Source: Comamonas thiooxydans (GTDB taxonomy: Bacteria; Pseudomonadota; Gammaproteobacteria; Burkholderiales; Burkholderiaceae_C). From it: DNA of 64,000 nt. The position numbers were made by a program, and so were the translations under genes. Below the pieces are notes generated by a model that worked only from the letters and a program-made list of their open reading frames with translations, had not been told where the DNA came from and made no database searches. How positions within the stretch are numbered: position 1 is the stretch's first letter; every line of letters begins with the position of its first letter. Below are positions 797-30,750 of this stretch, in pieces. The DNA lies in assembly GCF_002157685.2 (NCBI RefSeq), contig NZ_AP026738.1, positions 2,976,001 through 3,040,000 on the forward strand. The letters are read 5' to 3'.

Positions 797-888
797 CGAG
801 TTTAACTTACCCACTCGAAAGCGCAAACTGATTTCCATGCAGCATCCGCAACAACGGTTGCTCAGCTAATTCAATGACAGGAGCAAGC

Positions 889-1686: not shown

Positions 1687-1713
1687 GCAATGCCAGTGCA
1701 AGGAGACATATTC

Positions 1714-3203: not shown

Positions 3204-3403
3204 AGCACGCAAGCACCCTCAACCAGAGCGAGCCAGCCGTCGCAAGCTCGATCGCTGCTCCTCCAATGGGGTAGTGCTTGGAGCCGCCTACATGCCTGCC
3301 CTATGAGCTCGCTAATGGCCTAACACTACCGAGGTTCAAAGCTTCATGGTGTACCAATTGACGCCTAAGCGCTCCCCCCCTGCTCAACTCACCATTGACC
3401 TGT

Positions 3404-4306
3404 ATGTCTGCCCTGACCTCCGACTTTGCTCTCCCTGTACGTACCTACCTGGAACACCCGACGGCACCAAAGTTGCGCCTGCCCCCACAGGCATGCGATA
3501 GCCATGTCCATGTTTTAGGACCTGTTGCCCGATTCCCCTACAACCCCCAGCGTCGGGCTACTCCAGTTGAGGCGCCTAAGGAGACGTTGTTTGCCTTGCA
3601 TCGTCAAATGGGCATCGAACGTTGTGTCATCGTTCAGTCGATCACACACGGCACGGACAACCGGGTTGTTGAGGATGCAATTGCTGCTGGAGGGGGGCGT
3701 TACCTCGGTGTTGCACTGGTTGATCCAGACATCCCCGACACCGAGCTTCAACGCCTCGCACAGGTGGGCTTTCGCGGCGTGCGCTTTAACTTCATGAGAC
3801 ATATCGACGGGGGGGTTACCGTCGACAAAGTCTTAGCGCTTACGCCACGCCTTGCCGCTGTGGGGATGCATTTGCAGGTGCATTTTGAAAGCGAACTGAT
3901 TCATGAACTTGCCGAGCCCCTGCAGCGCAGCCATGTACCGGTAGTGATTGATCATATGGGACGCGTGGACGCTACGCGCGGGGCTAGCCATGCTGATTTT
4001 CAAGCACTTCTCAAACTGCTAGACAATAGCCAGTTCTATGTGAAAGTAAGTGGAATTGACCGTATTGATGCCAATGCACCTCCGCAGCAACGCTACCGCA
4101 ACGGAATAGCACTGGCACGCATACTTGTAGAGCGCTTTCCAGAGCGCTGTGTTTGGGGGACAGACTGGCCCCACCCCAATCACACGCACATTCCCGACGA
4201 TGGAGTACTAGTTGATGCACTGTCTGAAATAGCTAACAGCTCCAATCTTCTTGAACACCTACTTGTCAAGAATCCGCAGGCGCTTTATCGATTTCAGGCG
4301 CATTGA
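3404..4306 (+). CDS. Amidohydrolase family 2 / 2-pyrone-4,6-dicarboxylate lactonase-like hydrolase
   Basis: 300 residues, TIM-barrel metal-dependent hydrolase. The N-terminal CDSHVHVLGP carries the HxH metal motif, VIDHMGR is the downstream His segment and WGTDWPHPN carries the catalytic Asp. This pattern matches LigI-type lactonases and related members that hydrolyse lactones or cyclic intermediates. The ATG at 3404 is preferred over the in-frame TTG at 3395; neither has a strong ribosome binding site. About 200 bases separate it from the upstream gene, so it may have its own promoter. Substrate unknown. Confidence 0.85.
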   Translation: MSALTSDFALPVRTYLEHPTAPKLRLPPQACDSHVHVLGPVARFPYNPQRRATPVEAPKETLFALHRQMGIERCVIVQSITHGTDNRVVEDAIAAGGGRYLGVALVDPDIPDTELQRLAQVGFRGVRFNFMRHIDGGVTVDKVLALTPRLAAVGMHLQVHFESELIHELAEPLQRSHVPVVIDHMGRVDATRGASHADFQALLKLLDNSQFYVKVSGIDRIDANAPPQQRYRNGIALARILVERFPERCVWGTDWPHPNHTHIPDDGVLVDALSEIANSSNLLEHLLVKNPQALYRFQAH

Positions 4307-4960: not shown

Positions 4961-5224
4961 GTGAAAAAGAGATTTACAGAAGAACAGATCATTGGCTTCC
5001 TGCGAGAAGCGGAGTCTGGACTGCCAGTGGCAGAGCTGTGCCGTCGGCACGGTTTCTCTGAGGCTAGTTACTACCTCTGGCGTAACAAGTTCGGCGGCAT
5101 GAGCGTCTCGGACGCGAAACGGCTCAAGGAGCTAGAGCTTGAAAATGCACGTCTTAAGCGGCTGCTGGCCGAGTCCATGCTGGAGAACGAGGTGACGAAA
5201 GAAGCCTTGAGAAAAAAGTGGTGA
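4961..5224 (+). CDS. IS407-group transposase OrfA
   Basis: 87 residues with an N-terminal HTH_Tnp_1 domain (KKRFTEEQIIGFLREAESG, CRRHGFSEASYYLWRNKFGG) and a C-terminal leucine-zipper-like helix (LKELELENARLKRLLAE). GTG 4961 is preferred because AGGAG at 4949-4953 is well placed; the in-frame TTG at 4955 is too close to it. The run AAAAAAG at 5212-5218 lies in the correct frame for programmed -1 frameshifting into orfB, giving the fused OrfAB transposase. Confidence 0.93.
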   Translation: MKKRFTEEQIIGFLREAESGLPVAELCRRHGFSEASYYLWRNKFGGMSVSDAKRLKELELENARLKRLLAESMLENEVTKEALRKKW

Positions 5225-6051
5225 GCGCACCTGCACGGCGCGAGCTGGTGCGCCACATGATGGGCTGCGGGCTCAGCGAACGCCGCTCACTGCTCGTGAT
5301 CGGCATGAGCGCCAGCGCCTACCGTTACAAGCCCGCTGAAGACCGAAACGGTGCCTTGAAGGACAAGATCATCGCTCTGGCACAACGCCATCGCCGTTAC
5401 GGCGCCGGCATGATCTATCTCAAGCTCAGGCAAGCTGGTGAGATCGTCAACCACAAACGGGTGGAGCGCTTGTATGCCGAGGCTGGTTTGCAAGTAAGGA
5501 AACGCAAGCGCAAGAAGATCCCGCAGGCTGATCGCCACCCGCTACAGCGTCCGGTAACAGCCAACCAAGTGTGGTCGATGGATTTTGTCTTTGACCGCAC
5601 GGCAGAAGGACGCAGCATCAAGAGCCTGACGGTAGTCGATGATTCGACCCACGAGGCGGTAGCCATCGTGGCCGAGCGAGCAATGGGTGGCAACCAGTTG
5701 GTGCGCGTCCTGGATCAACTCGCCATCACAAGGGGACTGCCCAAAGCGATCCGAACTGACAACGGCAAGGAGTTCTGCAGTCGAGCCATGCTGAACTGGG
5801 CCCACGCCAGGGGTGTTCAGTTGTTTCTCATCGAGCCTGGCAAGCCCAACCAGAACGCCTACATCGAATCGTTCAACGGCCGCTTCAGAGAGGAATGCCT
5901 GAACGAACATTGGTTCACCAGCTTGGCACATGCCCGCGTGATCGTCGAGGCTTGGCGCCGGGAATACAACGAGGAGCGGCCGAAGAAGGTCCTTGGCGGA
6001 CTGACGCCGGCAGCTTATGCCCAAAGGCTGATGCACAACCCGTTAAATTAA
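5218..6051 (+). CDS. IS407-group transposase OrfB (DDE integrase core)
   Basis: 277 residues in the -1 frame relative to orfA and overlapping its end. The rve/DDE catalytic triad is present: Asp in VWSMDFVFD, Asp in IRTDNGKEF and Glu in AYIESFNGRFREECLNEHWF. An N-terminal HTH_21 region (HRRYGAGMIYLKLRQ) precedes it. No internal stop or frameshift is seen, so transposition competence is plausible. Confidence 0.94.
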   Translation: MVSAPARRELVRHMMGCGLSERRSLLVIGMSASAYRYKPAEDRNGALKDKIIALAQRHRRYGAGMIYLKLRQAGEIVNHKRVERLYAEAGLQVRKRKRKKIPQADRHPLQRPVTANQVWSMDFVFDRTAEGRSIKSLTVVDDSTHEAVAIVAERAMGGNQLVRVLDQLAITRGLPKAIRTDNGKEFCSRAMLNWAHARGVQLFLIEPGKPNQNAYIESFNGRFREECLNEHWFTSLAHARVIVEAWRREYNEERPKKVLGGLTPAAYAQRLMHNPLN

Positions 6052-6769: not shown

Positions 6770-7741
6770 TTATACATTGCTGTCAAACTGATTTTTTTGC
6801 ATCTGGAGTAAATCTATAAACCTAGCTGCAGAAATACTGACCGGCCTGTCTCTTTTAATTATCGTTCCAAACAATGCCAATTCGTGTTTCATTCTGTATG
6901 GAATAATTCTAAGAATTCCTGCAGATTCATATTGTTCCGCAATAGTCTTGGAAATCACAGCAACTAAATTTGACTTTTTTATGAGGTTTGTTGTTGTCAA
7001 AACCGATGGTGTCTCAATCAATGGCGACGGTAACGCTGAATGATTAGCACTAAATTCCTGCTCGACGACATCGCGCATGGGACTTCCCTTCGGCTGCAGA
7101 ACCCAGGGGTACCCGAGCAAACTATGAAAACTAATATTCGAAAATTCTGCAAGTGGATGGTGAGGACCTACCACTATACTGAGCTCTTCTGCTGCCATCG
7201 GTTGAAATATGCAGTTAGAGTGGTCATCTATTGGCAACCTACCAATCGCCAAGTCAATTAATCCATCATTTAAATACTCCATCAATTTATTACTTGTTCC
7301 GACTTCTATTATTATGGAAAGCCGCGGATACTCTTCTTTGATTTTCAGTATGGCATTCGTCAAATGCTCTGGGGATGCGGCCATGATGCTTCCCACCCGC
7401 AGCAATAGCGGTCCACCGCGTTGAATCTCTCGCACTTCAGCAGCCATGGCCTCTAATGTTCCTCGAACACCGCGAAAGTAGGAGGTCACGCACTTACCGA
7501 CCTCCGTCATCTTCAGCCGGCGCCCCATCCGTACAAACAGTGGGTGACCCATGGCCGTTTCGAGTTCATGCAACATCTTGGTGGCGGCTGGCTGTGTCAT
7601 GCCAAGCTCAGCTGCGGCTCCACGCAGAGTCCCCTGCTCCGCGATCGTCAAAAGCAATACCAATTGACGCATTCGAAGGCGGTTTAGCAGCTGCGCAGGT
7701 GGAGTTGGCGAGAAAGTACTTGATTCCATTTTTGCAATCAA
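6770..7741 (-). CDS. LysR-type transcriptional regulator (GbpR-like)
   Basis: 323 residues. The N-terminal winged HTH is at about residues 20-80 (LVLLLTIAEQGTLRGAAAEL, GMTQPAATKMLHELE) and a LysR effector domain follows. The pattern resembles the GbpR/galactose-binding-protein regulator subgroup that often controls sugar or sugar-acid transport. An in-frame ATG a few codons downstream (MESSTF, 7729) is an alternative start. It is divergent from the long pdxA-like operon starting at 7881 and is its likely regulator. The 3' half is noticeably AT-richer than the 5' half. Confidence 0.88.
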   Translation of the reverse strand: MIAKMESSTFSPTPPAQLLNRLRMRQLVLLLTIAEQGTLRGAAAELGMTQPAATKMLHELETAMGHPLFVRMGRRLKMTEVGKCVTSYFRGVRGTLEAMAAEVREIQRGGPLLLRVGSIMAASPEHLTNAILKIKEEYPRLSIIIEVGTSNKLMEYLNDGLIDLAIGRLPIDDHSNCIFQPMAAEELSIVVGPHHPLAEFSNISFHSLLGYPWVLQPKGSPMRDVVEQEFSANHSALPSPLIETPSVLTTTNLIKKSNLVAVISKTIAEQYESAGILRIIPYRMKHELALFGTIIKRDRPVSISAARFIDLLQMQKNQFDSNV

Positions 7742-7880: not shown

Positions 7881-8927
7881 ATGAAGCAGAACCTAGCCGT
7901 TGTCGCGCTGACCCTTGGCGATCCTGCTGGCATCGGCGCCGAACTCGTTGCTCGCCTCCTTTCCAAACCCGAAGCCACACAGCATGCCAACCTCGTGCTG
8001 ATCGGAGACCCCTGGCTGTGGGAAAAAGGCCAGCGCGTAGCCGGCGTACGGGTTGCCACCGTGCCCGCAGAGAACCTTGCCGAAGTGCGTCATCGCTACG
8101 ACGCTAGCTTGCCCGCCTTCATCGCCATGGAGACAGTGTCGCCCAGCGATGTGGTGCAAGGCCAAGTCGGCGCAGCGGGAGGGAAGTCGGTATTGCAGGT
8201 GCTCAACCGCTGCATGGATGCGGCGCTGGCGGGCGATATCGATGCCATATGCTTTGCACCCCTGAACAAGCAGGCCATGAAGATGGGCGGACTGCACCAC
8301 GAGGACGAGCTGCACCACTTCGCCGAGTACCTGGGGGCCCAGGGCTACTTCTGCGAATTCAACACGCTGGGCGAGCTGTGGACCTCACGCATCTCCTCGC
8401 ATGTACCGCTCAAGGATGTGGCCAGCTACCTGAGCGTGGAGCGCATCACTCAGGCGGCCGAGCTGATCTACAACGCCCTGCGAGCCAGCGGCGTGGCCGC
8501 GCCCAAGGTGGCGATTGCAGGCTTCAACCCGCACAACGGCGACGGCGGCACCTGCGGCCGCGAGGAAATCGACATCATCGCGCCCGCAGTCCAGGCCCTG
8601 CAGGCGCGCGACTGGCCCAGCGATGCGCCGTTCCACGGCCCGTTCCCGGCCGACACCATCTTCCTCAAGGCGCAGGCCGGCGAGTACCAGGCCATCGTGA
8701 CCATGTACCACGACCAGGGCCAGATCGCCATCAAGCTGCTGGGCTTCTCGCGCGGGGTGACGGTGCAGGGCGGTCTGCCGATTCCCATCACCACGCCGGC
8801 CCATGGCACGGCCTACGACATCGCAGGCCAGGGCAAGGCCAATGTGGAGGCCACCTGGCAGGCGCTGCAGATTGCCGCGCGCATGGGGGCTGCCCACCGC
8901 GATCGCCAGGCTGCCCCAGCCCTCTGA
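7881..8927 (+). CDS. PdxA-family dehydrogenase (4-hydroxythreonine-4-phosphate dehydrogenase-like)
   Basis: 348 residues from ATG 7881 with GGAGA at 7872-7876; a longer frame from 7788 is unlikely. It begins ALTLGDPAGIGAELVARLL, the PdxA signature, and contains the metal-binding His segments HHEDELHHFAEYLG and MYHDQGQIAIKLLGF. PdxA2-type paralogs oxidise 4-phospho-D-threonate or D-erythronate after a DUF1537 kinase, but no such kinase is nearby. The paralog TphB of Comamonas acts on an unphosphorylated cis-diol in terephthalate breakdown. In this operon a hydroxy-acid oxidation is likely; vitamin B6 synthesis is not. Confidence 0.88.
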   Translation: MKQNLAVVALTLGDPAGIGAELVARLLSKPEATQHANLVLIGDPWLWEKGQRVAGVRVATVPAENLAEVRHRYDASLPAFIAMETVSPSDVVQGQVGAAGGKSVLQVLNRCMDAALAGDIDAICFAPLNKQAMKMGGLHHEDELHHFAEYLGAQGYFCEFNTLGELWTSRISSHVPLKDVASYLSVERITQAAELIYNALRASGVAAPKVAIAGFNPHNGDGGTCGREEIDIIAPAVQALQARDWPSDAPFHGPFPADTIFLKAQAGEYQAIVTMYHDQGQIAIKLLGFSRGVTVQGGLPIPITTPAHGTAYDIAGQGKANVEATWQALQIAARMGAAHRDRQAAPAL

Positions 8928-8987
8928 GCCCGTTTTCTTGGCGGCCTGGGCCGCCTGTCCTACTCACTCTTTTCTTCCGAGGTCTGT

Positions 8988-10160
8988 ATGAAGATCAAGT
9001 CCGTCCGCGCCCGTGTCTATGAATGGAAGGGCAAGACCGTTCCGCCCCAGGGAAACTTCTGCTCCAACGCCATGGATCTGGTGTACTCCAACACCGAGTC
9101 CATGAGCACCTTCCGCTTCCATTCGTGGACCGTGGTCGAGATCGAAACCGATGACGGCATCATCGGTCTGGGCAATGTGGCCCTGGCACCAAGAATAGCC
9201 AAGGCCATCATCGACGAGTACCTGGCGCCCCTGGTCATCGGTCAGGACCCCTGGGACTACGAATACCTGTGGCAGCGCATGTACCGCGCCACCCATGCCT
9301 GGGGCCGCAAGGGCGTGACCATGGCCGCCATCTCGGCCGTGGACCTGGCCATCTGGGACATTCTGGGCAAGAGCGTGAACAAGCCCGTGTTCAAGCTGCT
9401 GGGCGGGCGCACCAAGGAAAAGATTCCCTGCTACTACAGCAAGCTCTACCGTACCGACTTGAAGGAGATGCAGGACGAGGCACAGAAATTCCTGGATCAG
9501 GGCTTCAAGGCCTTCAAGATGCGCTTTGGCTACGGGCCCGCCCATCTGCAAGAAGGTGTGAAGGAGAACCTCAAGTCCGTCGAAGCCATCCGTGAAGTGA
9601 TCGGCTACGACACCGACCTGATGCTGGAGTGCTACATGGGCTGGAACCTGGAATACGCCAAGCGCATGCTGCCCAAGCTGGCGAAGTTCGAGCCGCGCTG
9701 GCTGGAAGAGCCCGTGATCGCCGACGACATCGACGGCTACGCCGAGCTCAACGCCATGAACATCGTTCCCATCTCGGGCGGCGAGCACGAGTTCAGCCTC
9801 TACGGCTTCAAGCAGCTGCTCGACAAGAAGGCCGTCTCCGTCGTGCAGTACGACACCAATCGCGTGGGCGGCATCACGGCGGCGCACAAGATCAATGCCC
9901 TGTGCGAAGCCTATTCCGTGCCCGTGATCCCGCACGCCGGCCAGATGCACAACTACCACCTGACCATGAGCACCCTGGCCTCGCCCATGGCCGAGTATTT
10001 CCCCATCTTCGATGTGGAAGTGGGCAACGAGCTGTTCTGGTACATCTTCGACGGCGAACCGGTGGCCGACAACGGCTTCCTGCAGCTGCGCGACGACGTG
10101 CCGGGCCTGGGCCTCACGCTCAAGACCGAGTACCTCGACCAGTTCCATATCATCGAGTAA
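8988..10160 (+). CDS. Enolase-superfamily sugar-acid dehydratase (mandelate racemase/RhmD-like)
   Basis: 390 residues. The N-terminal capping domain is followed by a TIM barrel with the superfamily metal ligands Glu214 ([10 protein letters not shown]), Glu240 (WLEEPV) and Glu266 (SGGEHEF). An Asp289/His316 pair ([19 protein letters not shown]) forms the expected general-acid/base dyad and a K-x-R motif (FKMRF) ends the second strand. These features place it among acid-sugar dehydratases such as L-rhamnonate dehydratase. With the L-KDA dehydratase 11 bases downstream, the best inference is dehydration of an aldonate such as L-arabonate to a 2-keto-3-deoxy acid. Exact substrate unproven. Confidence 0.85.
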
Positions 10161-10171
10161 GGAGCCGCAGC

Positions 10172-11095
10172 ATGCCAGCACTCTCTAATCCCCGTTACCG
10201 GGGCATCTTCCCCGTTGTGCCCACCACCTTTCACGAGGACGGCACGCTGGACCTGACCAGCCAGAAGCGTTGCCTGGACTTCATGATTGACTCCGGCGTG
10301 GACGGCCTGTGCATTCTGGCCAACTATTCCGAGCAGTTTCTGCTAGCCGATGAGGAGCGTGAAATCCTCACCCGCCTCGTGCTGGAACATGTGGCGGGCC
10401 GCGTGCCGGTGATCGTCACCACCACTCACGCCAGCACCGCGATCTGCGCCGCACGCAGCCGCCGTGCGCAGGACATGGGCGCGGCCATGGTGATGGTCAT
10501 GCCGCCCTACCACGGGGCCACCTTCCGCTTCGGTGAGCCACAGATCCAGGCCTTCTTCCAGGGCGTGTCCGACGCCATCGATATTCCCATCATGATCCAG
10601 GATGCCCCGGCCGCCGGCACGCCGCTGCCACCGGCCTTCCTGGCCCGTATGGCCAAGGAAATCGAGCAGGTCAGCTACTTCAAGATGGAAACGGCCGGCG
10701 CGGCCGGCAAGCTGCGCGAGCTGATCGCCCTGGGCGGCGAAGCCATCGAAGGCCCATGGGATGGCGAGGAAGGCATCACCTTGCTGGCCGACCTGGAGGC
10801 CGGTGCCACCGGCGCCATGACCGGCGGTGGCTTTGCCGACGGCATTCGCCCCATCATCGAAGCCCACCGCAACGGCGACAAGGACAAGGCTTTCGAGCAA
10901 TACCAGCGCTGGCTGCCGCTGATTAACCACGAGAACCGTCAGGCCGGCTTTCTGGCGGCCAAGGCGCTGATGAAAGCTGGGGGTGTGATCACCTGCGATG
11001 CACCGCGCGCGCCCTGGCCACCCCTGCATCCCGAGGTGCGCCGTCAACTGCTGGACATCGCACGCCGGCTGGATCCGCTAGTGCTGCGTTGGTAA
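10172..11095 (+). CDS. L-2-keto-3-deoxyarabonate dehydratase (DapA/NAL family)
   Basis: 307 residues, class I aldolase fold with the Schiff-base lysine at Lys171 (YFKMET). Long segments (RYRGIFPVVPTTFHEDG, DGLCILANYSEQF, AMVMVMPPYHGATF, EGPWDGEEGITLLADL) resemble, from memory, the Azospirillum/Burkholderia enzyme that converts L-2-keto-3-deoxyarabonate to alpha-ketoglutarate semialdehyde more closely than dihydrodipicolinate synthase. It sits 11 bases after the dehydratase gene, with GGAG 6-7 bases before the ATG. The semialdehyde dehydrogenase needed for the next step is encoded at 16210 in the same run. Confidence 0.85.
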   Translation: MPALSNPRYRGIFPVVPTTFHEDGTLDLTSQKRCLDFMIDSGVDGLCILANYSEQFLLADEEREILTRLVLEHVAGRVPVIVTTTHASTAICAARSRRAQDMGAAMVMVMPPYHGATFRFGEPQIQAFFQGVSDAIDIPIMIQDAPAAGTPLPPAFLARMAKEIEQVSYFKMETAGAAGKLRELIALGGEAIEGPWDGEEGITLLADLEAGATGAMTGGGFADGIRPIIEAHRNGDKDKAFEQYQRWLPLINHENRQAGFLAAKALMKAGGVITCDAPRAPWPPLHPEVRRQLLDIARRLDPLVLRW

Positions 11096-11142
11096 ATTTG
11101 AAGTAGCAGATCAACGAAAAAAACTAACCAAAGGAGACAAAA

Positions 11143-12126
11143 ATGCAATCAAAACTACTGCATAACACTCGCCACGCAGCAGCTATCGTCACAATTTTCG
11201 CAGCAGGGGTTGCCTCTGCCGGCGATAAATTTCCATCGCGTGCAATCAAGATTGTCGTTGGTTCCGAAGCAGGGAGCGCCCCCGACGTACTGGCTCGTCT
11301 GGTTGCCAGCGAAATGGGGACCACTTTGGGGCAGGCGGTCATCATCGACAACAAGGCTGGAGCAGCGGGAACCATTGGAGCGCAAGCTGTCGCGTCAGCT
11401 CCCCCTGATGGATACACATTGTTGATGGGCACTGTGTCAAACATTGCTCTAGCACCGTCTTTCTACCCAGTGAGGTATGCACCACTCAAGAGCTTCACAC
11501 CCATTGGAATGGTGGCGTCTGTTCCCTTGGTGTTAGTCGTAACGCCTTCTCTTGGTGCCACGACATTTGCACAGCTGCAAGCGAAGGTGAAGCAATCAGC
11601 CTCTGGAGAATTCAATTTCTCATCGCCTGGTGTAGGTGGGCCGCAGCATCTCGCCGGAGTACTGCTGCAAAAACCCCTTGGCACCAAGCTCACTCACGTT
11701 CCCTACAAGAGTGGTGGAGCCGCAATGACCGCTGTTGCAGCTGGCGAAGTCCAGATGGCATTCGCAGGCATCCCAGCAGCAACCAGCTTAGCGCAGGGAA
11801 ACCGGGTCACTCCAATTATGGTGACGTCATCGAAACGGACCTCAACGATGCCAGAAGTCCCCTCAGCTGCGGAAGTTGGCTTGTCTGGCTTTGAAATCGA
11901 CAACTGGCATGCATTGCTCGCACCAGCCAATCTACCAATACCTATTCGTACGGCACTAGAAGCTGCCCTGCGAAAAGCTCTCGTGATGCCAAATATCAAA
12001 GACCAGTTCACCCGAGCTGGCGCCGAACCTGCCACAGGCGACAGCGAGCAGTTGTCGAAGACCATGGAAACAGAAACAGCACGTTGGGAAAAAGTCGTAC
12101 GCGACAACAACCTCAAGGCCAAATAA
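11143..12126 (+). CDS. Bug/TctC-family periplasmic solute-binding receptor
   Basis: 327 residues with a signal peptide (cleavage near GVASAGDKFPS, about residue 26) and family motifs IKIVVGSEAGSAPDVLARL, IDNKAGAAGTIGA, LTHVPYKSGG. AAAGGAGAC lies a few bases before the ATG. Its stop overlaps the sulfatase start (TAATG), so uptake and desulfation genes are coupled. No membrane partner is encoded nearby. GC content falls sharply at this gene compared with the three upstream ones. Confidence 0.92.
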   Translation: MQSKLLHNTRHAAAIVTIFAAGVASAGDKFPSRAIKIVVGSEAGSAPDVLARLVASEMGTTLGQAVIIDNKAGAAGTIGAQAVASAPPDGYTLLMGTVSNIALAPSFYPVRYAPLKSFTPIGMVASVPLVLVVTPSLGATTFAQLQAKVKQSASGEFNFSSPGVGGPQHLAGVLLQKPLGTKLTHVPYKSGGAAMTAVAAGEVQMAFAGIPAATSLAQGNRVTPIMVTSSKRTSTMPEVPSAAEVGLSGFEIDNWHALLAPANLPIPIRTALEAALRKALVMPNIKDQFTRAGAEPATGDSEQLSKTMETETARWEKVVRDNNLKAK

Positions 12127-13580
12127 TGGAAGCACAGAACCTTCTAATCATCATGGACGACGAGCACAACAAGAACGTGCTTGGATACAACGGCCATCCA
12201 GTTGTCCAAACGCCCAACTTAGACAGGCTGGCGTCTGGTGGAACCACATATGAGCGGGCATATTCCAGCTCACCTATATGTGTGCCAGCAAGAGCAGCGT
12301 TCGCTACTGGCCGGTACGTGCATGACAACCGATGCTGGGACAATGCCATCGCATATGACGGCTCGATGCCTAGTTGGGCTCATGTACTGCGCGATTCAGG
12401 CCACCTCGTCACCTCCATTGGCAAGCTTCATTACACCGGCGAGGACATTGATGGTGGCTTCACGGAGCAAATCATTCCAATGCATATTGAAGCCGGCGTT
12501 GGTGACCTTTTCGGGTTGATCCGCGATCCACTTCCTACTCGTCATCAATCTGCGGACTTAGCAAGAAGCATCGGCCCCGGGGAAAGCAGCTATATCCGTT
12601 ACGACCGCGACATCACTGAAAAAACGATCAATTGGCTTCGAACAGCGGGGAAAAAAAGGCATGACAAGCCGTGGGTACTGTACAGCTCCTTTATGGCGCC
12701 TCACTCGCCCCTAATTGCTCCACAAGAGTTCTACGACATGTATCCGGCAAAGGACATTGTTCTGCCGTCAAAGCGAGTGCCCTATCACCCTTGGATAAAG
12801 GCTTGGAATGACTGTTACGGGTTTGACTCGTACTTTGAAAGCGACGAGCACAGGCGCATCGCCATCGCGTCCTATTACGGCCTCTGTTCCTTCCTCGACT
12901 CAAACGTAGGCAAGATCATGCATGCACTTGAGGAGACAGGCCTCGCTCAGAACACTCGAGTGCTGTTCTTATCAGATCACGGTGACAACCTGGGATCACG
13001 TGCCCTGTGGGGAAAATCGACGATGTATGAAGAGTCATGCGGAGTTCCAATGATCGCTTCCGGCCCTGGTATCCAGGCTGGGCGGCGAGTCAAAACACCA
13101 GTTTCGCACGTGGATTGCTTCCCTTCATTCATGCAAGCGGTTGGATCAGAAGACCTAACCCCCAAAGATCTGCCTGGGCGCTCCATTTTCGACATAGCCG
13201 ACAAGCCATACGATGACAAGCGAACTGTGTTCAGCGAATACCATGCAGCAGGTGGCGTGAGTGCCGCCTATATGCTGCGCAAGGGTGACTTCAAATACAT
13301 CCACTACACCGGGTTGAAGCCTGAGCTGTTCAATCTCGCCCAAGATCCAGACGAGGTCATCGACTTGGCGACAGACGCAACAATGTCGAGCGTTCTCGAA
13401 AATTTTCAGCACGAACTCGAGATCATCTGCGATCCAGTCGCTATGGACTTGGCTGCTAAACACGACCAAGCAGCTTTGATTCGCATGCATGGTGGAGTCG
13501 AAAAGATCCTTAACCGGGGCGGCAGCAGCTATACCCCGATCCCCGGGGAAGCAATAAAGCTGATGAGCGATGGACATTGA
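12126..13580 (+). CDS. Type I sulfatase / alkaline phosphatase-fold hydrolase, cytoplasmic
   Basis: 484 residues from the ATG overlapping the receptor stop. Cys52-Val-Pro-Ala-Arg56 (ICVPARAAFATGRYV) is the CxPxR motif converted to formylglycine. Metal ligands are the N-terminal Asp-Asp (IIMDDEHNKN) and SDHGDNLG near residue 285. There is no signal peptide, so it should act in the cytoplasm like choline sulfatase, on a small imported sulfate ester. Some members of this fold are phosphonate or phosphodiester hydrolases, so sulfatase is the best but not the only reading. Confidence 0.85.
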   Translation: MEAQNLLIIMDDEHNKNVLGYNGHPVVQTPNLDRLASGGTTYERAYSSSPICVPARAAFATGRYVHDNRCWDNAIAYDGSMPSWAHVLRDSGHLVTSIGKLHYTGEDIDGGFTEQIIPMHIEAGVGDLFGLIRDPLPTRHQSADLARSIGPGESSYIRYDRDITEKTINWLRTAGKKRHDKPWVLYSSFMAPHSPLIAPQEFYDMYPAKDIVLPSKRVPYHPWIKAWNDCYGFDSYFESDEHRRIAIASYYGLCSFLDSNVGKIMHALEETGLAQNTRVLFLSDHGDNLGSRALWGKSTMYEESCGVPMIASGPGIQAGRRVKTPVSHVDCFPSFMQAVGSEDLTPKDLPGRSIFDIADKPYDDKRTVFSEYHAAGGVSAAYMLRKGDFKYIHYTGLKPELFNLAQDPDEVIDLATDATMSSVLENFQHELEIICDPVAMDLAAKHDQAALIRMHGGVEKILNRGGSSYTPIPGEAIKLMSDGH

Positions 13581-13592
13581 CAGGAGCTGATA

Positions 13593-14342
13593 GTGCCTGA
13601 ACTCGTTGCTTGGCTATTGACGCCCATTAGTGGAACAACTGAACACCTCATCCAACCTGTAGTCGCTTGGCATGGACGAATCATGGTGCTTTGCTGGGGC
13701 GTCGCGATTCCATTGGCTGTACTCATAGCCAGATTTTTCAAGGTGACACCCAGGCAACAATGGCCACATCAACTGGACAACAAGACCTGGTGGACTTGGC
13801 ATCGTGCATTGAATTACACCGCGGTTGCCGCGAGCCTTATCGCTGGGTTGCTTGTGCTGAACCATGATTCATATAGTGGTCTAGCTCGACAGATGCATGA
13901 ATGGATGGGTTGGACCATCGTAGTGTCAGGTCTATTGCAAGTCTTAGTCGGAAATTTGCGTGGCACAAAGGGCGGACCGACAGACCCTCGAATAGATTCC
14001 GACGGCCAGTTCATAGATCTCCATGGGGATCATTACGACATGACGCCGAGGCGCGTGCACTTTGAGCGCTTCCATAAAGGTCTCGGCTATATGGCGTTGT
14101 TACTAGCCGCCGGCACTATGTACCTGGGACTCTGGACAGCAGATGCACCTCGCTGGATGTGGATTGGAATTGGGTTGTGGTGGGCGGGATTGGCATGCGT
14201 AGGCGCAAAACTCCAGGCCAATGGACGTTGCCTGGATACCTACCAAGCCATTTGGGGTCCCGACGACACACATCCAGGAAACAACATGCCCGTCATCGGA
14301 TGGGGCATTCGCCGCGAACGCCCTGGTACCCGTCATCTTTGA
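13593..14342 (+). CDS. Cytochrome b561-domain membrane protein
   Basis: 249 residues from GTG 13593 (CAGGAG about 6 bases upstream). About five hydrophobic segments are seen. Histidines lie at or near membrane segments (AWHGRIMVLCWG, WWTWHRALNYTA, MHEWMGWTIVVSG, ERFHKGLGYMALLL), the layout expected for two-heme b561/ferric-reductase-like domains. It lies 12 bases after the sulfatase gene and 9 before the lactonase gene, so it is in the operon. It may pass electrons between quinone and a soluble partner, but no partner dehydrogenase is obvious. Confidence 0.72.
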   Translation: MPELVAWLLTPISGTTEHLIQPVVAWHGRIMVLCWGVAIPLAVLIARFFKVTPRQQWPHQLDNKTWWTWHRALNYTAVAASLIAGLLVLNHDSYSGLARQMHEWMGWTIVVSGLLQVLVGNLRGTKGGPTDPRIDSDGQFIDLHGDHYDMTPRRVHFERFHKGLGYMALLLAAGTMYLGLWTADAPRWMWIGIGLWWAGLACVGAKLQANGRCLDTYQAIWGPDDTHPGNNMPVIGWGIRRERPGTRHL

Positions 14343-14351
14343 AAGACATTT

Positions 14352-15269
14352 GTGGAACCCATCGAAACTATTGACAACAGATTCGCCCGCGCTTTTGCCG
14401 GAGCGTCACTGGAGAAACTGTGTTCAGGGGCCAGCTGGAGCGAGGGACCTGTGTGGATTGCAGAAGACGAATCTGTTTTATGGAGTGACATTCCAAACAA
14501 CCGTATGCTTCGCTGGTCACGCACTGACGGCATGACAGTTTGGAGAGACAACGTGGAGTTCACGAACGGCCATACGCGAGATGTCAATGGTGACCTGCTG
14601 CATTGCTCCCATGGTCAAAGGGCAATCATGCGCACGCCACTGGCTGCTGGCCGGATACAAGCAGAGACCCCAGACCAAACCGTCATCGACAAGTACCGTG
14701 GAGGTCGTCTCAACTCACCCAATGACTTGGTTGTTCGAGGCGATGGCACCATTTGGTTCACCGATCCACCTTATGGAATTTTGAGCGATCGCGAAGGCCA
14801 CCAAGCCCCCAGGGAGCAGGATGCCAACTACGTGTTCTGCTTCGATCCGTCCACAGGCATCCTTCACGCAGTCACCGCGGAGGTTGAGGAACCCAACGGT
14901 CTGGCCTTTTCACCCGACGAGTCCTTACTTTACGTTAGCGACACCTCGGCAGCATTCAAGGGGCCAGGCGAAGGTAACCATCACATTGTCGCATTCGACG
15001 TCAAAGGGCATGCACTGGAAAACATGCGGATTCTCGCGACAGTCAACCCTGGTTTGCCAGATGGGTTTCGAGTTCACGACAACGGCTGGATTTACACAAG
15101 TTCGGAAGACTCTGTGCAGGTTTTCACACCTGAAGGAAGCCTATTGGGACGCATTCCTGTGCCAGAAAAGGTTGGAAATCTAACATTCGGTGGACCAAAA
15201 GGTAACCACCTTTACATCGCTGCGAGCACCTCGCTTTACTTGATTGTCCTCAACACCGAAGAGCTTTAA
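14352..15269 (+). CDS. SMP-30/gluconolactonase-family sugar lactone hydrolase
   Basis: 305 residues from GTG 14352. Six-bladed propeller of the SMP-30 family with the divalent-metal ligands in the expected order: Glu in SWSEGPVW near residue 32, Asn in LNSPNDLVV, and Asp in LYVSDTS. It would open an aldonolactone to the aldonate used by the dehydratase at 8988. No signal peptide, so cytoplasmic. Substrate specificity cannot be read from sequence. Confidence 0.88.
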   Translation: MEPIETIDNRFARAFAGASLEKLCSGASWSEGPVWIAEDESVLWSDIPNNRMLRWSRTDGMTVWRDNVEFTNGHTRDVNGDLLHCSHGQRAIMRTPLAAGRIQAETPDQTVIDKYRGGRLNSPNDLVVRGDGTIWFTDPPYGILSDREGHQAPREQDANYVFCFDPSTGILHAVTAEVEEPNGLAFSPDESLLYVSDTSAAFKGPGEGNHHIVAFDVKGHALENMRILATVNPGLPDGFRVHDNGWIYTSSEDSVQVFTPEGSLLGRIPVPEKVGNLTFGGPKGNHLYIAASTSLYLIVLNTEEL

Positions 15270-15271
15270 AA

Positions 15272-16207
15272 ATGATCCGCGAAATCCTTCTGTTGGTAGA
15301 AAAATGCAGCCACTGCTTTAGTTACTACGACATCTCGACCGGTGAACGCCTGCACAGCATTCAGCTGGAAGACTTCCCTCACGAGTTCGTGGTTGACGAG
15401 GAAAGGCAGTTTGCGTATGTCGGCCACTATGGCGTTGAAACCTCTGGCCATCCTGGTGCCGGCGGGACAAGAATTTTTCAGATCGATTTACCCAATCGGA
15501 AATTAGCTCGCACTATTGACATCTCACCGTTCAATCGGCTGCATGGCATGCAAATGGATCAGAAGGGCCGACTCTACGCTCTAAGTGAAGAGCGCGCGCA
15601 ACTAGTCGTTATCCAGAAGCCAGCAACCGACACTGCACCCCGGCGTGCGGTGCCAACGGGAGGCATAAAAAGCCACCTATTTGCTTTGACACGGGACGGA
15701 ATGACGGCCTTTTCTATGAACCTTCTGTCCCACACAGTGACCAAACTAAAACCTCATGATGCAACCTTTGCGCCGATCGCGTGCTCGCCTGGTGAAAAAC
15801 CAGAAGGTTACGCTCTGAGTGCTGACGAAAAAACGCTGTTCGTCACCAATCGATGGAGCAACACAATCAGCGCTATTGATGTCGATACGATGAAAGTCAT
15901 CCGTAGTGCCCAATCACGAGAAGACGCCACTCGCCTCTACCAATTCAGGGATGGAAGGCTGGTGGTAACCAACTACGGAGAGCGCAGCCTTTCCATCATT
16001 AATCCCGAAACGCTTCAGGAACTAACACATATCCCAATGGAAGCACGCCCCATTGCGTTGAGCTACCACCCTACGCGACCACTTGCCTTCGTGAGTCAGG
16101 ACAACGACAAGCTTGGCATATTCAACATGGAAACACTGAAATTTGAAAGATTCTTCGCAACGCAGCGCGAACCGGACGTGTCCCAGCTCATCGTGATGGA
16201 AATCTGA
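15272..16207 (+). CDS. YncE-like beta-propeller protein of unknown function
   Basis: 311 residues, 2 bases after the lactonase stop. Repeated blades of the YVTN/lactonase type are visible (HEFVVDEERQFAYVGHYG, GYALSADEKTLFVTNRWSN, YHPTRPLAFVSQDNDKLG). No signal peptide is present, whereas many YncE proteins are exported. It could be a second lactonase of the 6-phosphogluconolactonase propeller type or a binding protein. No catalytic residue could be assigned. Confidence 0.72.
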   Translation: MIREILLLVEKCSHCFSYYDISTGERLHSIQLEDFPHEFVVDEERQFAYVGHYGVETSGHPGAGGTRIFQIDLPNRKLARTIDISPFNRLHGMQMDQKGRLYALSEERAQLVVIQKPATDTAPRRAVPTGGIKSHLFALTRDGMTAFSMNLLSHTVTKLKPHDATFAPIACSPGEKPEGYALSADEKTLFVTNRWSNTISAIDVDTMKVIRSAQSREDATRLYQFRDGRLVVTNYGERSLSIINPETLQELTHIPMEARPIALSYHPTRPLAFVSQDNDKLGIFNMETLKFERFFATQREPDVSQLIVMEI

Positions 16208-16209
16208 AA

Positions 16210-17703
16210 ATGTTGGAACCTATAGCCGTAAACCTACATACCAGCGAACAGCAATATTTGCCTTGCCCAGAGTCCAGTAAGCAAGAAATCGATATATCAG
16301 TAGGACGTGCGGCTGCCGCTGCCATCCCATTCTCGTTGCTGAATTCACACGCTCGAGCGGACTTTTTAGAAGCTCTTGCACGCGCACTTGAGCTTCATCG
16401 CAATACGCTGATTGCCCTAGCAAACAACGAAACCGGACTCGAATTGCCACGGCTGCATAGCGAGCTCGATCGAACAACGTTTCAACTGAGACGCTTCTCT
16501 GCATTGCTGCGTGACGGCGTGTGCGAATACGCAAGCAATGATGCAGCAGTAAGCGGTGCGCCACCAGCAAGTCGACCGCGCTTGACCAAAATTAGGGTGC
16601 CCATTGGTCCAGTCGCCATGTTTTCTGCAAGCAATTTTCCATTTGCTTTCTCGGTGCTCGGTGGTGATACCGCATCGGCGCTGGCGGCCGGATGCCCTGT
16701 GGTAGTCAAGGGCCACCCTGGGCACCCTAAATTATCCCGAGCCACAATAATTTTGGCAGAGCAGGTGGTGAGGGAGCAAGGGTTGCCTCCAGGGGTTATA
16801 CAGTTTGTCCATGGCAACTCTACGGATGTAGGGGTCATGCTTGTCGAGTCGGACGCTATTGCAGCAGTCGCATTCACCGGCTCTTTCAGGGGTGGCATGG
16901 CGCTGGCTAAGGTGGCAGGTGCCCGAGCACGCCCTATACCTTTCTACGGTGAATTAGGCTCAGTCAATCCCCTGGTAGTATTGCCGTCAGCCCTCGAAGG
17001 TAATCAAGCAGCATCATTAGCCGAGGCACTGGCTAACTCTATATGCATGGGGTCCGGTCAATTCTGTACAAGCCCCGGTGTAATCGTGGTTGGCCAAGAC
17101 GCGCAAGGAGATGCCTTTGTACACGCCTTAGCATCTTGCCTGTCCGCCTTATCTCCACATGGGATGCTTTCGACAGGTATCAGGGCCGGCTTTGAAGATG
17201 GTATCCGTCGTTGGCGCAGCATCGCCAAGCTTAAAGTCCTCGTGGATAGTAGCAACGCACGCCATCCGCATCCCGGGCCATTTCTCGGAGAAGTAACCTC
17301 TATCGATTTTCTTGAAGACCATCGCCTTCACGAGGAAGTTTTCGGTTCTGCTGCCCTCGTTGTACGTGTAGCTTCTGTTGATGAAGCCGCCGCCGTACTA
17401 AATGCTATTGGCGGGTCCTTGACTGTGACGCTTTGGGGAGTGCCGTCAGGCCAAGACTGTCCTGACGGACCGACAGAGCACCTCGTGCGAACAGCGCAGG
17501 CTGTGGCTGGGCGAGTGTTGTTCTCAGGCGTTCCCACAGGAGTTGCCGTCACACGTGCACAGCACCATGGAGGCCCATTTCCGGCTTCTACAGCGCCATT
17601 CACCACTTCCGTTGGGGATGATGCGTTGGACCGATTTCTTCGACCACTTGCCCTTCAAGATGCACCAGAGTGGCTCTTAGCACGCTACCGGTTGCACTCT
17701 TAA
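16210..17703 (+). CDS. Alpha-ketoglutarate semialdehyde (2,5-dioxovalerate) dehydrogenase
   Basis: 497 residues, aldehyde dehydrogenase superfamily. The catalytic Cys is in GSGQFCTSPG, the general-base Glu in GELGSVNPLV and the oxyanion Asn in FSASNFPFAFS. The FAFSVLGGDTASALAAGCPVV and GSGQFCTSPG segments are characteristic of KGSADH enzymes that finish non-phosphorylative pentose and glucarate/galactarate routes by making 2-oxoglutarate. It lies 2 bases after the propeller gene. With the L-KDA dehydratase upstream it supplies the last two steps of such a route. Confidence 0.87.
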   Translation: MLEPIAVNLHTSEQQYLPCPESSKQEIDISVGRAAAAAIPFSLLNSHARADFLEALARALELHRNTLIALANNETGLELPRLHSELDRTTFQLRRFSALLRDGVCEYASNDAAVSGAPPASRPRLTKIRVPIGPVAMFSASNFPFAFSVLGGDTASALAAGCPVVVKGHPGHPKLSRATIILAEQVVREQGLPPGVIQFVHGNSTDVGVMLVESDAIAAVAFTGSFRGGMALAKVAGARARPIPFYGELGSVNPLVVLPSALEGNQAASLAEALANSICMGSGQFCTSPGVIVVGQDAQGDAFVHALASCLSALSPHGMLSTGIRAGFEDGIRRWRSIAKLKVLVDSSNARHPHPGPFLGEVTSIDFLEDHRLHEEVFGSAALVVRVASVDEAAAVLNAIGGSLTVTLWGVPSGQDCPDGPTEHLVRTAQAVAGRVLFSGVPTGVAVTRAQHHGGPFPASTAPFTTSVGDDALDRFLRPLALQDAPEWLLARYRLHS

Positions 17704-17743
17704 GCTCCTGCGAAAAGACGTCTATATTCACTTCGAGGAAAAA

Positions 17744-18091
17744 ATGGCGCTGACTAATTGGCATCGGCAAGGAAAAGACCCAGACTACCGTTTCACACTA
17801 GCGAATGAACGTACGTTTCTGGCCTGGATCAGAACCTCTCTTACATTGCTGGCAAGCGGTATTTTGCTAGATCAACTGGGGCCCGCATATCCTAGAGGCC
17901 TGATACTACTGACTGCGCTGATGTTGGTTTTAGGCGCAGCATTTTGCTCTGTCACTGCGTACTTCCGCTGGCGAACAAACGAGATTGCAATGCGCTTCAA
18001 TTATCCGCTGCCGTACACAATAGTGCTACCTGTGATAGTGATGTTGTTCGTTGCGGTAAGCCTAATGGTCGGAGTGCTGCTTCTTCACTAG
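17744..18091 (+). CDS. DUF202 (YidH-like) small membrane protein
   Basis: 115 residues with the DUF202 signature (FTLANERTFLAWIRTSLTLL) and three predicted membrane helices. It follows the semialdehyde dehydrogenase by 40 bases with GAGG upstream of the ATG, and precedes a second DUF202 gene by one base. The molecular role of this family is not established. Confidence 0.85.
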   Translation: MALTNWHRQGKDPDYRFTLANERTFLAWIRTSLTLLASGILLDQLGPAYPRGLILLTALMLVLGAAFCSVTAYFRWRTNEIAMRFNYPLPYTIVLPVIVMLFVAVSLMVGVLLLH

Positions 18092-18092
18092 C

Positions 18093-18398
18093 ATGCGAGA
18101 TCCTGGACTTCAGCAAGATCGTACTGTGCTTTCTTGGCGGCGCACTGCGCTCGCGCTGGCAGCTAACTCTGCCATTTTTTGTCGCCAAGGCCTTTTACAC
18201 GGCCAAGCGATACTGATGGGAATTTCCGCACTCCTCCTATTATGTGCATTTTTCGCAATTTACCTCAGTATGCTTAGGCAACGCCAATTTTCCGAAACCA
18301 AAGTGCCAATGGTGAATAACCCTATTGCCAATGCGACCTTCAGCCTACTCACTTTGTCGGCAAGTTTGGCAGCCGTGTGGGACATATCGGGAAACTGA
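18093..18398 (+). CDS. DUF202 (YidG-like) small membrane protein, second of a pair
   Basis: 101 residues. It begins with the short form of the DUF202 motif (LQQDRTVLSWRRTALALAAN) and has three hydrophobic segments. It starts one base after the preceding DUF202 stop, indicating translational coupling. YidG/YidH-type pairs occur together in many proteobacteria and may form a heteromer. It is the last gene of the long operon. Confidence 0.8.
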   Translation: MRDPGLQQDRTVLSWRRTALALAANSAIFCRQGLLHGQAILMGISALLLLCAFFAIYLSMLRQRQFSETKVPMVNNPIANATFSLLTLSASLAAVWDISGN

Positions 18399-19670: not shown

Positions 19671-21671
19671 TTAGGCACATTCAAGTGCCAGCACTTCCTC
19701 GCGAACTTCATCTGGCACAGTTTCTACAGCCGCTCGTTGTTGGCCAGGCAATGCTTTCTTGGCTGCCTCCACCACTTCCATTTCTGTGGTGTGCTTGTTC
19801 TCCTGCAGCTGCAGCACGCCCTCATCGATGGTGCCCTGGATGATTGGCACGAGGACCAGGACATCGCGGATCTGACCCAAGCGATAGGCCCGGTCCTCAG
19901 CCTGGCGCATCAAGGCTGGCGTCCACGGCATGGACGCAAATGCCACGATGTTGGCAGCCGTCAGCGTGATGCCCACGCCCGCGGCCATGGTTGTGCCAAT
20001 GAATACCTTGATACTTGCGTCCCCCTGGAACGCATCTACCGCAGCCTGGCGACGCTTCAAGCTATCTGAGCCGACCAACGAGACACAGCCCACGCCGAGG
20101 CTGGCCAGGGCCTGTTTAAGGGCCTCCACGGTGCTCATGTACTCGCAAAAGATGATGAGCTTGTCGTTCTCTCCCATGGCCTGCACGGTTTCGACCAGGT
20201 ACGGAACCTTCAGACCTTCAAGGCATTTACGCAGGCGAACGATCTTGGGCATGGCCTGCAGGGTCATGTCGCCATAGATCTCCTTGTAGACATCGAGCCC
20301 CTCGGCCGACAAAGGCACAAACTGCCTCGCCTTGTCACCCAGATCCTTGAGCACGTCCTTGCTGCGACGGATCATCCACCCCTGAATGGCTGCGGCCAGC
20401 GCGGCTCTCTTCTCCGCAGTGCCAGCGTAGTTCTTACGGAACTCGGCAAGCGTGAGGCTTCCCAGGCGATGGCCGGTAATGCGTAGCAGCGTGTGCATTT
20501 CGATCTCACGATTGAGCAACGGCGTGCCGGTAACGACAAAGCACCGCTCAATGCGTGCGGCCAGCAGGAACACATTGCGCGTGCGGCCGCTCTTGTATTC
20601 CTTCAGGTAGTGGGCTTCATCCACGGCCATCACCGCGAACTCCAGCTCAGTCTCGCGCACTAGACCGCCCATACGTTCGTAGTTGCCGATCACCCAGTCA
20701 CAGCCAGCCAGCGTAGAAATCCGGTCCTCACCGATCATCCCGACGCGAGCGTCGGGGTAGACCATCTTGATCTCTCGCTCCCAGTTCAATCGTAAGGATG
20801 CAGGGCATACGATCAGGACCCGGCCTCTGCCGGCAGCCATCCGGGATGCCACCACCGTCTGGCGACTCTTGCCCAGGCCCATGTCATCGCCCATGCAGGC
20901 GCCCGATTGGCGCAGCATGTGCGCGACCCCTTCGGCCTGGTAGTCGCGCAGAACGCCACAGGCGACCAGGCTGGCCAGGGCCACCCGGTCATACGGCATG
21001 TCATCGACGTGGCCATGCTCGGTCGACAGGAAACCGGTGCCCTCTTCTTCACCAGGCCCGCCGCCCCCGCCCAGCGGTGGCGATGCAGCGGGCACGCTGA
21101 TAGGCGAGCCTTCGTTGCCGCTTGTGGTCAACTCTTCGATGACCACTGGCTGCTCATGGACGAATACGAACTCCGACGACACGCCGGCAATGTTGGCCAG
21201 CCGCTCCATGATGAGCTCAGGATCGGCTCTGACCTGCCACGCTGACGCATGCTTGTGGAAGTAGCCGCCCAACGAGCGCATCGCCTTCACGCATAGCGGG
21301 TCGTAGGTAAAGCTAACCGCCCATGAACCGCGTGCCAGGTCTCCCTTCACCAGCGGGAAGATCTGCACATCGAGCAACTGCGAGAAGTAGTCGGGATCAG
21401 GAGCTGCGACAGCGGCGCGCAGTTGCACATCGAGCTGCTCCATATCCACGAAGTGCCCAGCAAACGCATGCTTAATCACATCGTCGGCATAACTGGAGTC
21501 GGTAGTTTGAAGCAGCCACATGCGCCGAGCTCCACTCCACCAAGCATCGTAGTTTGCTAGTGGACGGCTCACACCTGGAACTGTCAGGAGCTGCAGGCCC
21601 AGCCTGCGTCCATCCGAGACGGCTTTGATAAGGAGATCCGGCGGGCGGATCGTGACGGGCCTAGGCAACAT
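19671..21671 (-). CDS. SNF2-family DEAD/DEAH-box helicase
   Basis: 666 residues. The N-terminal 200 residues are unassigned. Then come SNF2 helicase motifs: Q/I region LRDYQAEGVAHML, Walker A GDDMGLGKSRQT, motif II DEAH, motif III VTGTPLLN, and a C-terminal helicase domain (KLIIFCEYMSTVEALKQALA; motif VI RQAEDRAYRLGQ). A Gly/Pro-rich linker (SPPLGGGGGPGEEEGTG) separates the halves. The start ATG at 21671 overlaps the upstream stop (TGATG). Such ATPases remodel protein-DNA complexes; here it may support element maintenance or defence. Confidence 0.88.
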   Translation of the reverse strand: MLPRPVTIRPPDLLIKAVSDGRRLGLQLLTVPGVSRPLANYDAWWSGARRMWLLQTTDSSYADDVIKHAFAGHFVDMEQLDVQLRAAVAAPDPDYFSQLLDVQIFPLVKGDLARGSWAVSFTYDPLCVKAMRSLGGYFHKHASAWQVRADPELIMERLANIAGVSSEFVFVHEQPVVIEELTTSGNEGSPISVPAASPPLGGGGGPGEEEGTGFLSTEHGHVDDMPYDRVALASLVACGVLRDYQAEGVAHMLRQSGACMGDDMGLGKSRQTVVASRMAAGRGRVLIVCPASLRLNWEREIKMVYPDARVGMIGEDRISTLAGCDWVIGNYERMGGLVRETELEFAVMAVDEAHYLKEYKSGRTRNVFLLAARIERCFVVTGTPLLNREIEMHTLLRITGHRLGSLTLAEFRKNYAGTAEKRAALAAAIQGWMIRRSKDVLKDLGDKARQFVPLSAEGLDVYKEIYGDMTLQAMPKIVRLRKCLEGLKVPYLVETVQAMGENDKLIIFCEYMSTVEALKQALASLGVGCVSLVGSDSLKRRQAAVDAFQGDASIKVFIGTTMAAGVGITLTAANIVAFASMPWTPALMRQAEDRAYRLGQIRDVLVLVPIIQGTIDEGVLQLQENKHTTEMEVVEAAKKALPGQQRAAVETVPDEVREEVLALECA

Positions 21672-21955
21672 CAAAGCCCCTCACGAACAACTCTTGTTGC
21701 TGGTGACTCATAGCCCCAACCTTCGGCCATCCATAGCGCCCATGTGAGCGTTGAATCAGAAACCTGCAGCCCCGATATAAGCGGATCAAAATCGCTGGAA
21801 CACTTCAAGATAAAAGTGTCGTAGGACTTCCCGATCAGAGCGATATTTTTATTGAACACATCCTGGCAAGTATTGGCCCATGCCACAGGATCGAAATTCG
21901 TATCGACTGGATCGGGAACAACGAGCCCCAAAAATTGATATTTTTTTTGCACCAT
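21671..21955 (-). CDS. Hypothetical protein of the element, 94 residues
   Basis: Begins MVQKKYQFLGLVVPDPVDTN after an AGGAGA site; the longer frame to 21988 has no such site. It overlaps the helicase start by one base, so the pair is probably translationally coupled. It ends with a WALWMAEGWGYESPATRVVR segment. No family recognised. Confidence 0.65.
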   Translation of the reverse strand: MVQKKYQFLGLVVPDPVDTNFDPVAWANTCQDVFNKNIALIGKSYDTFILKCSSDFDPLISGLQVSDSTLTWALWMAEGWGYESPATRVVREGL

Positions 21956-30712: not shown

Positions 30713-30722
30713 TGAAATTCCT

Positions 30723-30750
30723 CGTTGAATGGTTGTTGATCCATTCAACG
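30723..30750. promoter_or_regulatory. Perfect inverted repeat in the parA leader
   Basis: CGTTGAATGG, 8 bases, CCATTCAACG: two perfect 10-bp arms ending 11 bases upstream of the parA start codon. Candidate operator for autoregulation by ParA or ParB, or a centromere-like parS site. The downstream arm abuts the ribosome binding site, so binding would block translation or elongation. Confidence 0.65.

Follow-up and report, generated by a model that had tools for sequence, protein, structure and literature searches.

Bacterial L-ascorbate degradation is known from Ralstonia eutropha H16, where a b561-type protein reportedly oxidises ascorbate, an SMP-30 protein opens the ring and a propeller protein rearranges the product. 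A PdxA-family enzyme is then said to decarboxylate it to L-lyxonate, from which two dehydratases and an aldehyde dehydrogenase reportedly give 2-oxoglutarate. In Pseudomonas aeruginosa PAO1, L-lyxonate is said to be consumed by an enolase-type dehydratase, a keto-deoxy-lyxonate dehydratase and a 2-oxoglutarate semialdehyde dehydrogenase. The non-phosphorylative L-arabinose pathway of Azospirillum uses an L-2-keto-3-deoxyarabonate dehydratase and an acid-sugar dehydratase of the IlvD/EDD type. Here we analysed a 64,000-nucleotide stretch of Comamonas thiooxydans DNA (positions 2,976,001–3,040,000 of a 5.91-Mb single-contig genome; hereafter, the window), which carries an eleven-gene operon comparable to these systems. 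The core of this operon very probably corresponds to the known bacterial pathway and would degrade L-ascorbate. That it also serves a sulfated ascorbate, most likely ascorbate-2-sulfate, is slightly favoured by the sequence evidence, and an ascorbate operon extended to ascorbate-2-sulfate is the overall explanation that we prefer.

The operon occupies positions 7881–18398 of the window on the + strand and consists of eleven codirectional open reading frames (ORFs), all of them open. They encode, in order, a PdxA-like protein, an enolase/mandelate-racemase protein, a DapA-like protein, a Bug/TctC receptor, a sulfatase, a b561-like protein, an SMP-30 protein, a YncE-like propeller, an aldehyde dehydrogenase and two DUF202 proteins. 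A preliminary description of an eleven-gene codirectional run with 'gaps of 60 bases or less' proved exact, the gaps counted after each stop codon being 60, 20, 47, 2, 12, 9, 2, 2, 40 and 1 bases. Its further claim, an undescribed pathway, did not hold: b561, SMP-30, propeller and PdxA fit the upper half of the L-ascorbate route, and many of the 77 named loci described below carry them together. The first gene, PdxA, which that description left unnamed, is a key clue to this reading. A Polaromonas plasmid has the order PdxA-Enol-(Bug-Sulf2)-DapA-Bug-Sulf-b561-SMP30-propeller-ALDH-DUF202 (Enol, enolase type; Sulf, sulfatase; ALDH, aldehyde dehydrogenase), with genes split by frameshifts. Because the same order is kept there, the arrangement in the window is not due to chance. 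The plasmid aldehyde dehydrogenase, in the same position as that of the window, is in two pieces with 50% and 72% identity.

The lower half of the pathway is predicted to lead to 2-oxoglutarate via an L-2-keto-3-deoxypentonate. The DapA-family protein (10181–11095, +), a predicted 2-keto-3-deoxy-L-pentonate dehydratase, matches L-2-keto-3-deoxyarabonate dehydratase in the PDB (3fkk/7c0c, ~2e-148), with the next PDB sequence at 3.5e-26. This close likeness is shared with the Azospirillum L-arabinose pathway; unlike that pathway, the operon uses an enolase-type dehydratase and contains no arabinose dehydrogenase. The enolase-superfamily protein (8988–10160, +), a proposed L-lyxonate dehydratase, matches PDB entries 3stp, 3ssz and 3sqs (2.8e-193 to 3.3e-189), whose names carry no settled function. 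It has KMR at residues 177–179 and His316 within PHAG; a KxR motif with R179 and a catalytic H316 is the numbering of L-lyxonate dehydratase in the enolase superfamily. Models for L-rhamnonate, galactonate, arabinonate and glucarate dehydratases all scored far under their cut-offs and were rejected. The Ruegeria pomeroyi enolase-type enzyme has 3ssz as its best PDB match (7e-261), and its gene lies in the order TRAP transporter, heme-binding protein, propeller, PdxA, enolase, DapA, NADP+ aldehyde dehydrogenase, LacI and SMP-30.

The aldehyde dehydrogenase (16210–17703, +) is closest to the NADP+ aldehyde dehydrogenase 3v4c in the PDB (1.3e-101) and scores 89.5 bits with NF042993, the model of GucD-type 2-oxoglutarate semialdehyde dehydrogenases, against a cut-off of 770. 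Because it falls below this cut-off, its substrate, 2-oxoglutarate semialdehyde, is proposed from context only. Four steps to 2-oxoglutarate had been proposed for the operon; of these, the lower half through L-2-keto-3-deoxypentonate stands. The enolase-type dehydratase, the keto-deoxy-lyxonate dehydratase and the 2-oxoglutarate semialdehyde dehydrogenase are the enzyme types of the L-lyxonate pathway of P. aeruginosa PAO1, which covers the last three steps only; PMC6336799 cites it (Ghasempur et al. 2014).

The upper half begins with the PdxA-family protein (7881–8927, +; PF04166, 6e-84), a proposed NAD-dependent 2-carboxy-L-lyxonate decarboxylase. It scores under the cut-offs of all seven listed NCBIfam PdxA models and is 51–55% identical to Cupriavidus copies that adjoin enolase genes. 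The motifs SSHVPL (at 172), NPHNGD (at 216) and YHDQG (at 276) presumably hold the PdxA metal ligands. The b561-type membrane protein (13593–14342, +) is a proposed ascorbate:acceptor oxidoreductase. Of 25 homologues, 24 match the Pfam cytochrome b561 family (PF03188) at E ≤ 0.01, the best of them with 1.4e-10; the window protein itself scores 19.9 bits, under the cut-off of 23. His 18, 27, 70, 102, 147 and 161 are invariant across 25 aligned copies, out of 27 from the window and the named loci (L092 and L156 were left out). In structural comparison with VIA-align, the three best alignments were to Dcytb and to cytochrome b561 (two entries, of which one has ascorbate bound); Foldseek gave no match at E ≤ 0.001.

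The SMP-30/gluconolactonase-type lactonase (14352–15269, +; PF08450, 8e-39), proposed to open the dehydroascorbate ring, resembles the gluconolactonase structures 3dr2 (3e-58) and 3e5z. Next to it, the YVTN-type β-propeller (15272–16207, +) is proposed to rearrange 2,3-diketo-L-gulonate to the 2-carboxy-L-lyxono skeleton; its AlphaFold model has a pLDDT of 96.4 and matches 1l0q in Foldseek (1e-17). It is 46% identical to the Cupriavidus necator homologues (L138, L151), and the C. necator homologue lies near an amidohydrolase. His14, His37, His52, His91 and Glu178 are invariant across 29 aligned sequences, of 83 propellers, with both propeller types defined below included. Overall, the operon resembles the R. 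eutropha H16 ascorbate pathway in its b561, gluconolactonase, WD40-like propeller, PdxA and L-lyxonate tail. The b561 and propeller genes, previously regarded as unusual extras, would form the upper half of the ascorbate pathway together with SMP-30 and PdxA; the genuine addition is the sulfatase together with a dedicated Bug receptor.

Scanning named genomes with two peptide patterns of the window propeller type gave 77 loci, some sharing a genome. Within stretches of up to 10 kb per side, PdxA was found in 56 loci, enolase in 51, SMP-30 in 51, DapA in 29, b561 in 26 and a sulfatase in eight; all 26 loci with b561 also carry SMP-30. Two C. necator genomes and C. lacunae have Bug-PdxA-Enol and DapA-aldehyde dehydrogenase at one place and the propeller elsewhere, accompanied by an amidohydrolase and a LysR gene (L138 being the locus whose order was read), the amidohydrolase match recurring in all six Cupriavidus propeller loci. 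We classed 83 propellers from the window and the named loci by neighbour, counting second copies and leaving out matches of ≤250 residues or with stops: 44 adjoin SMP-30 (L090 among these being near an amidohydrolase as well), 26 lie beside an amidohydrolase only and 13 beside neither. Among loci L082–L158, the propeller types split accordingly, KCSHC mostly beside SMP-30 and the other mostly beside the amidohydrolase. There are two main propeller arrangements, and that of the window is the SMP-30 one: its propeller is of the KCSHC type, whereas the Cupriavidus propeller is of the amidohydrolase-paired type. The window-type b561 was also not found in four Cupriavidus genomes or two others, in a search run without a positive control.

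In the same family, this b561 occurs in 13 of 299 genomes, that of C. thiooxydans included. The 12 other loci, two of them on contigs shorter than 8 kb, carry SMP-30 (11), propeller (six), enolase (five) and sulfatase (two). By eye, many also have a sugar-type ABC transporter; among the 77 named loci, 20 have a homologue of its receptor. Loci L058 and L061–L063 combine SMP-30 with b561 and, by eye, an ABC transporter but lack propeller, PdxA and enolase within the stretch; L058 has idonate-type dehydrogenases next to this set.

The added module consists of the Bug/TctC periplasmic receptor (11143–12126, +; PF03401) and the S1-type sulfatase with which it is paired (12129–13580, +; PF00884, 1.2e-43), a proposed ascorbate-2-sulfate sulfohydrolase. 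The sulfatase has the CxPxR-type motif CVPAR, with Cys51, and no signal peptide that we could see by eye. Choline sulfatase was rejected as its identity: TIGR03417 gave 281.7 bits against a cut-off of 433.45 and the gene neighbours differ, although choline sulfatase 6fny belongs to the same family and aligns over residues 3–448, the C-x-P-x-R region included. Chemically, it is reasonable for a sulfatase to lie next to an ascorbate oxidase, and the sulfated substrate of the preliminary description remains plausible.

In all, 11 linked sulfatases were identified (the window, L054, L082, L109, L110, L111, L113, L115, L116, L146 and the Polaromonas plasmid; L082 and L055 were taken as the same contig). 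In every one of the 11 loci, Bug immediately precedes the sulfatase, and b561 and SMP-30 are present. Propeller and PdxA or enolase are each present in ten, the exception for both being L054 on a 7.7-kb contig. In a tree of 51 sulfatases, built from ten linked copies (Polaromonas left out), six 'second' sulfatases and the 35 best other matches, the linked copies, all with CVPAR, form one clade (support 100/99) and the second ones another. As most linked sulfatases had been found via the propeller, context-blind sulfatase searches served as a control, with at most five candidates scored per family genome and four per order genome. Across the 299 family genomes, matches above 60% were the window's own, G148 (79%) and G186 (77%), all adjoining b561 and SMP-30; a 60% match in G132 has a Bug nearby and none of the other query genes. 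No match but the window's own exceeded 57% in 399 order genomes, and the eight order-level loci examined (L066–L073) have no b561 or PdxA nearby. From 72,556 plasmids, one of 30 matches exceeded 60%, that of Polaromonas, annotated as 'DUF4976 domain-containing protein'.

The strongest alternative accepts the ascorbate operon and assigns the sulfatase–Bug pair to another sulfate ester, for example a different ascorbate ester or one used in general sulfur scavenging, sharing only the regulator. The candidate regulator is a divergent gene (6770–7741, − strand, from the ORF list; LysR type read by eye), and LysR homologues adjoin PdxA in several relatives. The substrate is left open by the best NCBIfam models (choline sulfatase, arylsulfatase and PehA), all under their cut-offs. 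Furthermore, a second, distant sulfatase is present in six of the eight named loci that carry the sulfatase and in Polaromonas, and one substrate may not cover both. Against this alternative, b561 directly follows the sulfatase in nine of the 11 loci, across Comamonadaceae and Alcaligenaceae (an aldehyde dehydrogenase intervenes in L082 and LysR in L116), and the family, order and plasmid searches gave no further member above 60%. We consider it unlikely, if worth keeping in mind. The second Bug–sulfatase pairs occur in the same clusters (L109, L110, L111, L113, L115, L146 and L178); their sulfatases have a CMPNR motif in the six checked, and pieces are 27–39% identical to the window sulfatase.

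Our preferred reading, an ascorbate operon extended to ascorbate-2-sulfate, suggests the following route, in which we infer all substrates and reactions in this organism from observed gene content, families, conserved residues, order and co-inheritance. The Bug receptor would deliver the ester to a transporter of the tripartite tricarboxylate type, whose membrane parts the operon lacks (no search for them was made). The cytoplasmic sulfatase would split ascorbate-2-sulfate into ascorbate and sulfate, ahead of oxidation of ascorbate to dehydroascorbate by b561 at the membrane. Opening of the lactone by SMP-30 would yield 2,3-diketo-L-gulonate, which the propeller would turn into a 2-carboxy-L-lyxono compound for decarboxylation to L-lyxonate by PdxA. 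The enolase-type enzyme would then form 2-keto-3-deoxy-L-lyxonate, the DapA-type enzyme 2-oxoglutarate semialdehyde and the aldehyde dehydrogenase 2-oxoglutarate. A fuller version hangs evenly in the balance: a dedicated ascorbate-2-sulfate pathway, in which a clade of Bug-paired cytoplasmic sulfatases joined the ascorbate operons of Comamonadaceae and Alcaligenaceae, borne by an island here and by a plasmid in Polaromonas, some clusters having a second Bug–sulfatase pair for another ascorbate ester and a functionally linked DUF202.

Several observations weigh against this reading. This sulfatase is absent from 69 of the 77 propeller loci in the stretch examined. The operon, unlike the R. eutropha H16 pathway, has no amidohydrolase-superfamily lactonase; the one homologue of that lactonase in the genome is 44% identical and lies 0.4 Mb from the operon. 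No complete formylglycine-generating enzyme (FGE) or anaerobic sulfatase-maturating enzyme (anSME) was found in this genome, the PF03781 matches being a fragment and an EgtB-like frame (by eye), and the match of the FGE fragment starts at position 110 of 255. Near full-length PF03781 matches were present in eight of the nine sulfatase-bearing relatives searched (the exception being Pigmentiphaga kullae; Polaromonas lies outside the nine). Finally, the DUF202 genes are left unexplained by the ascorbate pathway.

The FGE fragment (G000:C1:4644568-4645038, L008) is 5′-truncated, keeps the C-x5-type C-terminal cysteine pair and has a transposase-like frame nearby (by eye). Upstream of the operon, a separate run (874–4306) encodes a short-chain dehydrogenase/reductase, a Bug receptor, a carboxymuconolactone decarboxylase-like protein and an amidohydrolase. 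The amidohydrolase (3407–4303) was considered as the absent lactonase and rejected, having no homologue in L006, L007, L054–L073 or the 77 propeller loci; it resembles 4-sulfomuconolactone hydrolase, under the cut-off, and we do not claim it as a lactonase.

A less probable alternative, to which we give little weight, is a hybrid and partly idle island operon, with a sulfatase left unmatured in this genome and the operon only duplicating the chromosomal L-lyxonate genes. The GC content at third codon positions is 0.82–0.89 in PdxA, Enol and DapA and 0.48–0.59 in the rest of the operon, and only this block (7897–11092) matches a second chromosomal copy, with 90% DNA identity (~4908448–4911643, G000:C1, L006). 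Because the block differs in composition and alone has such a match, the operon is a hybrid. Recombination probably put it together on an island that carries integrase, KfrA-like, ParA-like and transposase genes. By eye, the second copy comes with a separate Bug, a LysR in divergent orientation and an aldehyde dehydrogenase downstream. The window carries genes for a transposase with integrase core (5218–6051), an SNF2 helicase (19674–21674), a ParA-like protein (29822–30793), a KfrA-like protein (42009–42989) and a tyrosine integrase (43352–44548), and an AT-richer genomic island appears to harbour the operon. The second copy, these island features and the lack of an intact FGE or anSME all suit an idle operon. 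Against it, all eleven frames are open, and the genome has no second full-length b561 or propeller (SMP-30 lay outside this check).

The DUF202 membrane proteins (17744–18091, +, PF02656 7e-17; 18093–18398, +, PF02656 2e-10) are, like the sulfatase with Bug, additions relative to the R. eutropha H16 pathway. A gene annotated as DUF202 also closes the Polaromonas plasmid cluster. With tblastn over 170 records, the first DUF202 was found only in the window and at one unrelated family sulfatase locus (L079 = L162), and a profile built from four sequences (two from the window, Polaromonas and L162) detected only those four in 88 stretches and none in the other linked loci. A DUF202–sulfatase link, as in the E. 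coli yid genes, was unsupported by these scans. In L162, the DUF202 gene (8075–8431) adjoins an unrelated sulfatase of 49% identity in another family genome.

The weakest alternative, which appears very unlikely, is that the operon encodes an undescribed pathway for a different modified aldonolactone or sugar acid, in which an unseen sugar dehydrogenase has b561 as its electron partner. L058, where SMP-30, b561 and an ABC sugar transporter lie, by eye, beside an L-idonate-type dehydrogenase set, suggests that the module may serve several lactones, but no separate sugar dehydrogenase was found among the operon genes, and PdxA and the propeller would have no evident role in such a route, while both suit the ascorbate route.

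Ascorbate-2-sulfate occurs naturally and is a stabilised form of vitamin C. The core of the operon, very probably the known ascorbate pathway, is ordinary, and the sulfatase–Bug module is new. We found no report of a bacterial ascorbate-sulfate sulfatase in the titles and abstract starts of the papers listed from the open-licence literature, a weak absence given that subscription journals were mostly outside this scope. In the second arrangement of ascorbate genes, the propeller adjoins SMP-30 and an amidohydrolase is absent, which raises the question of whether that arrangement requires the lactonase step. If the proposed extension is true, a substrate would be assigned to a sulfatase clade that now bears general labels only, and genes for the bacterial use of sulfated vitamin C would be named.

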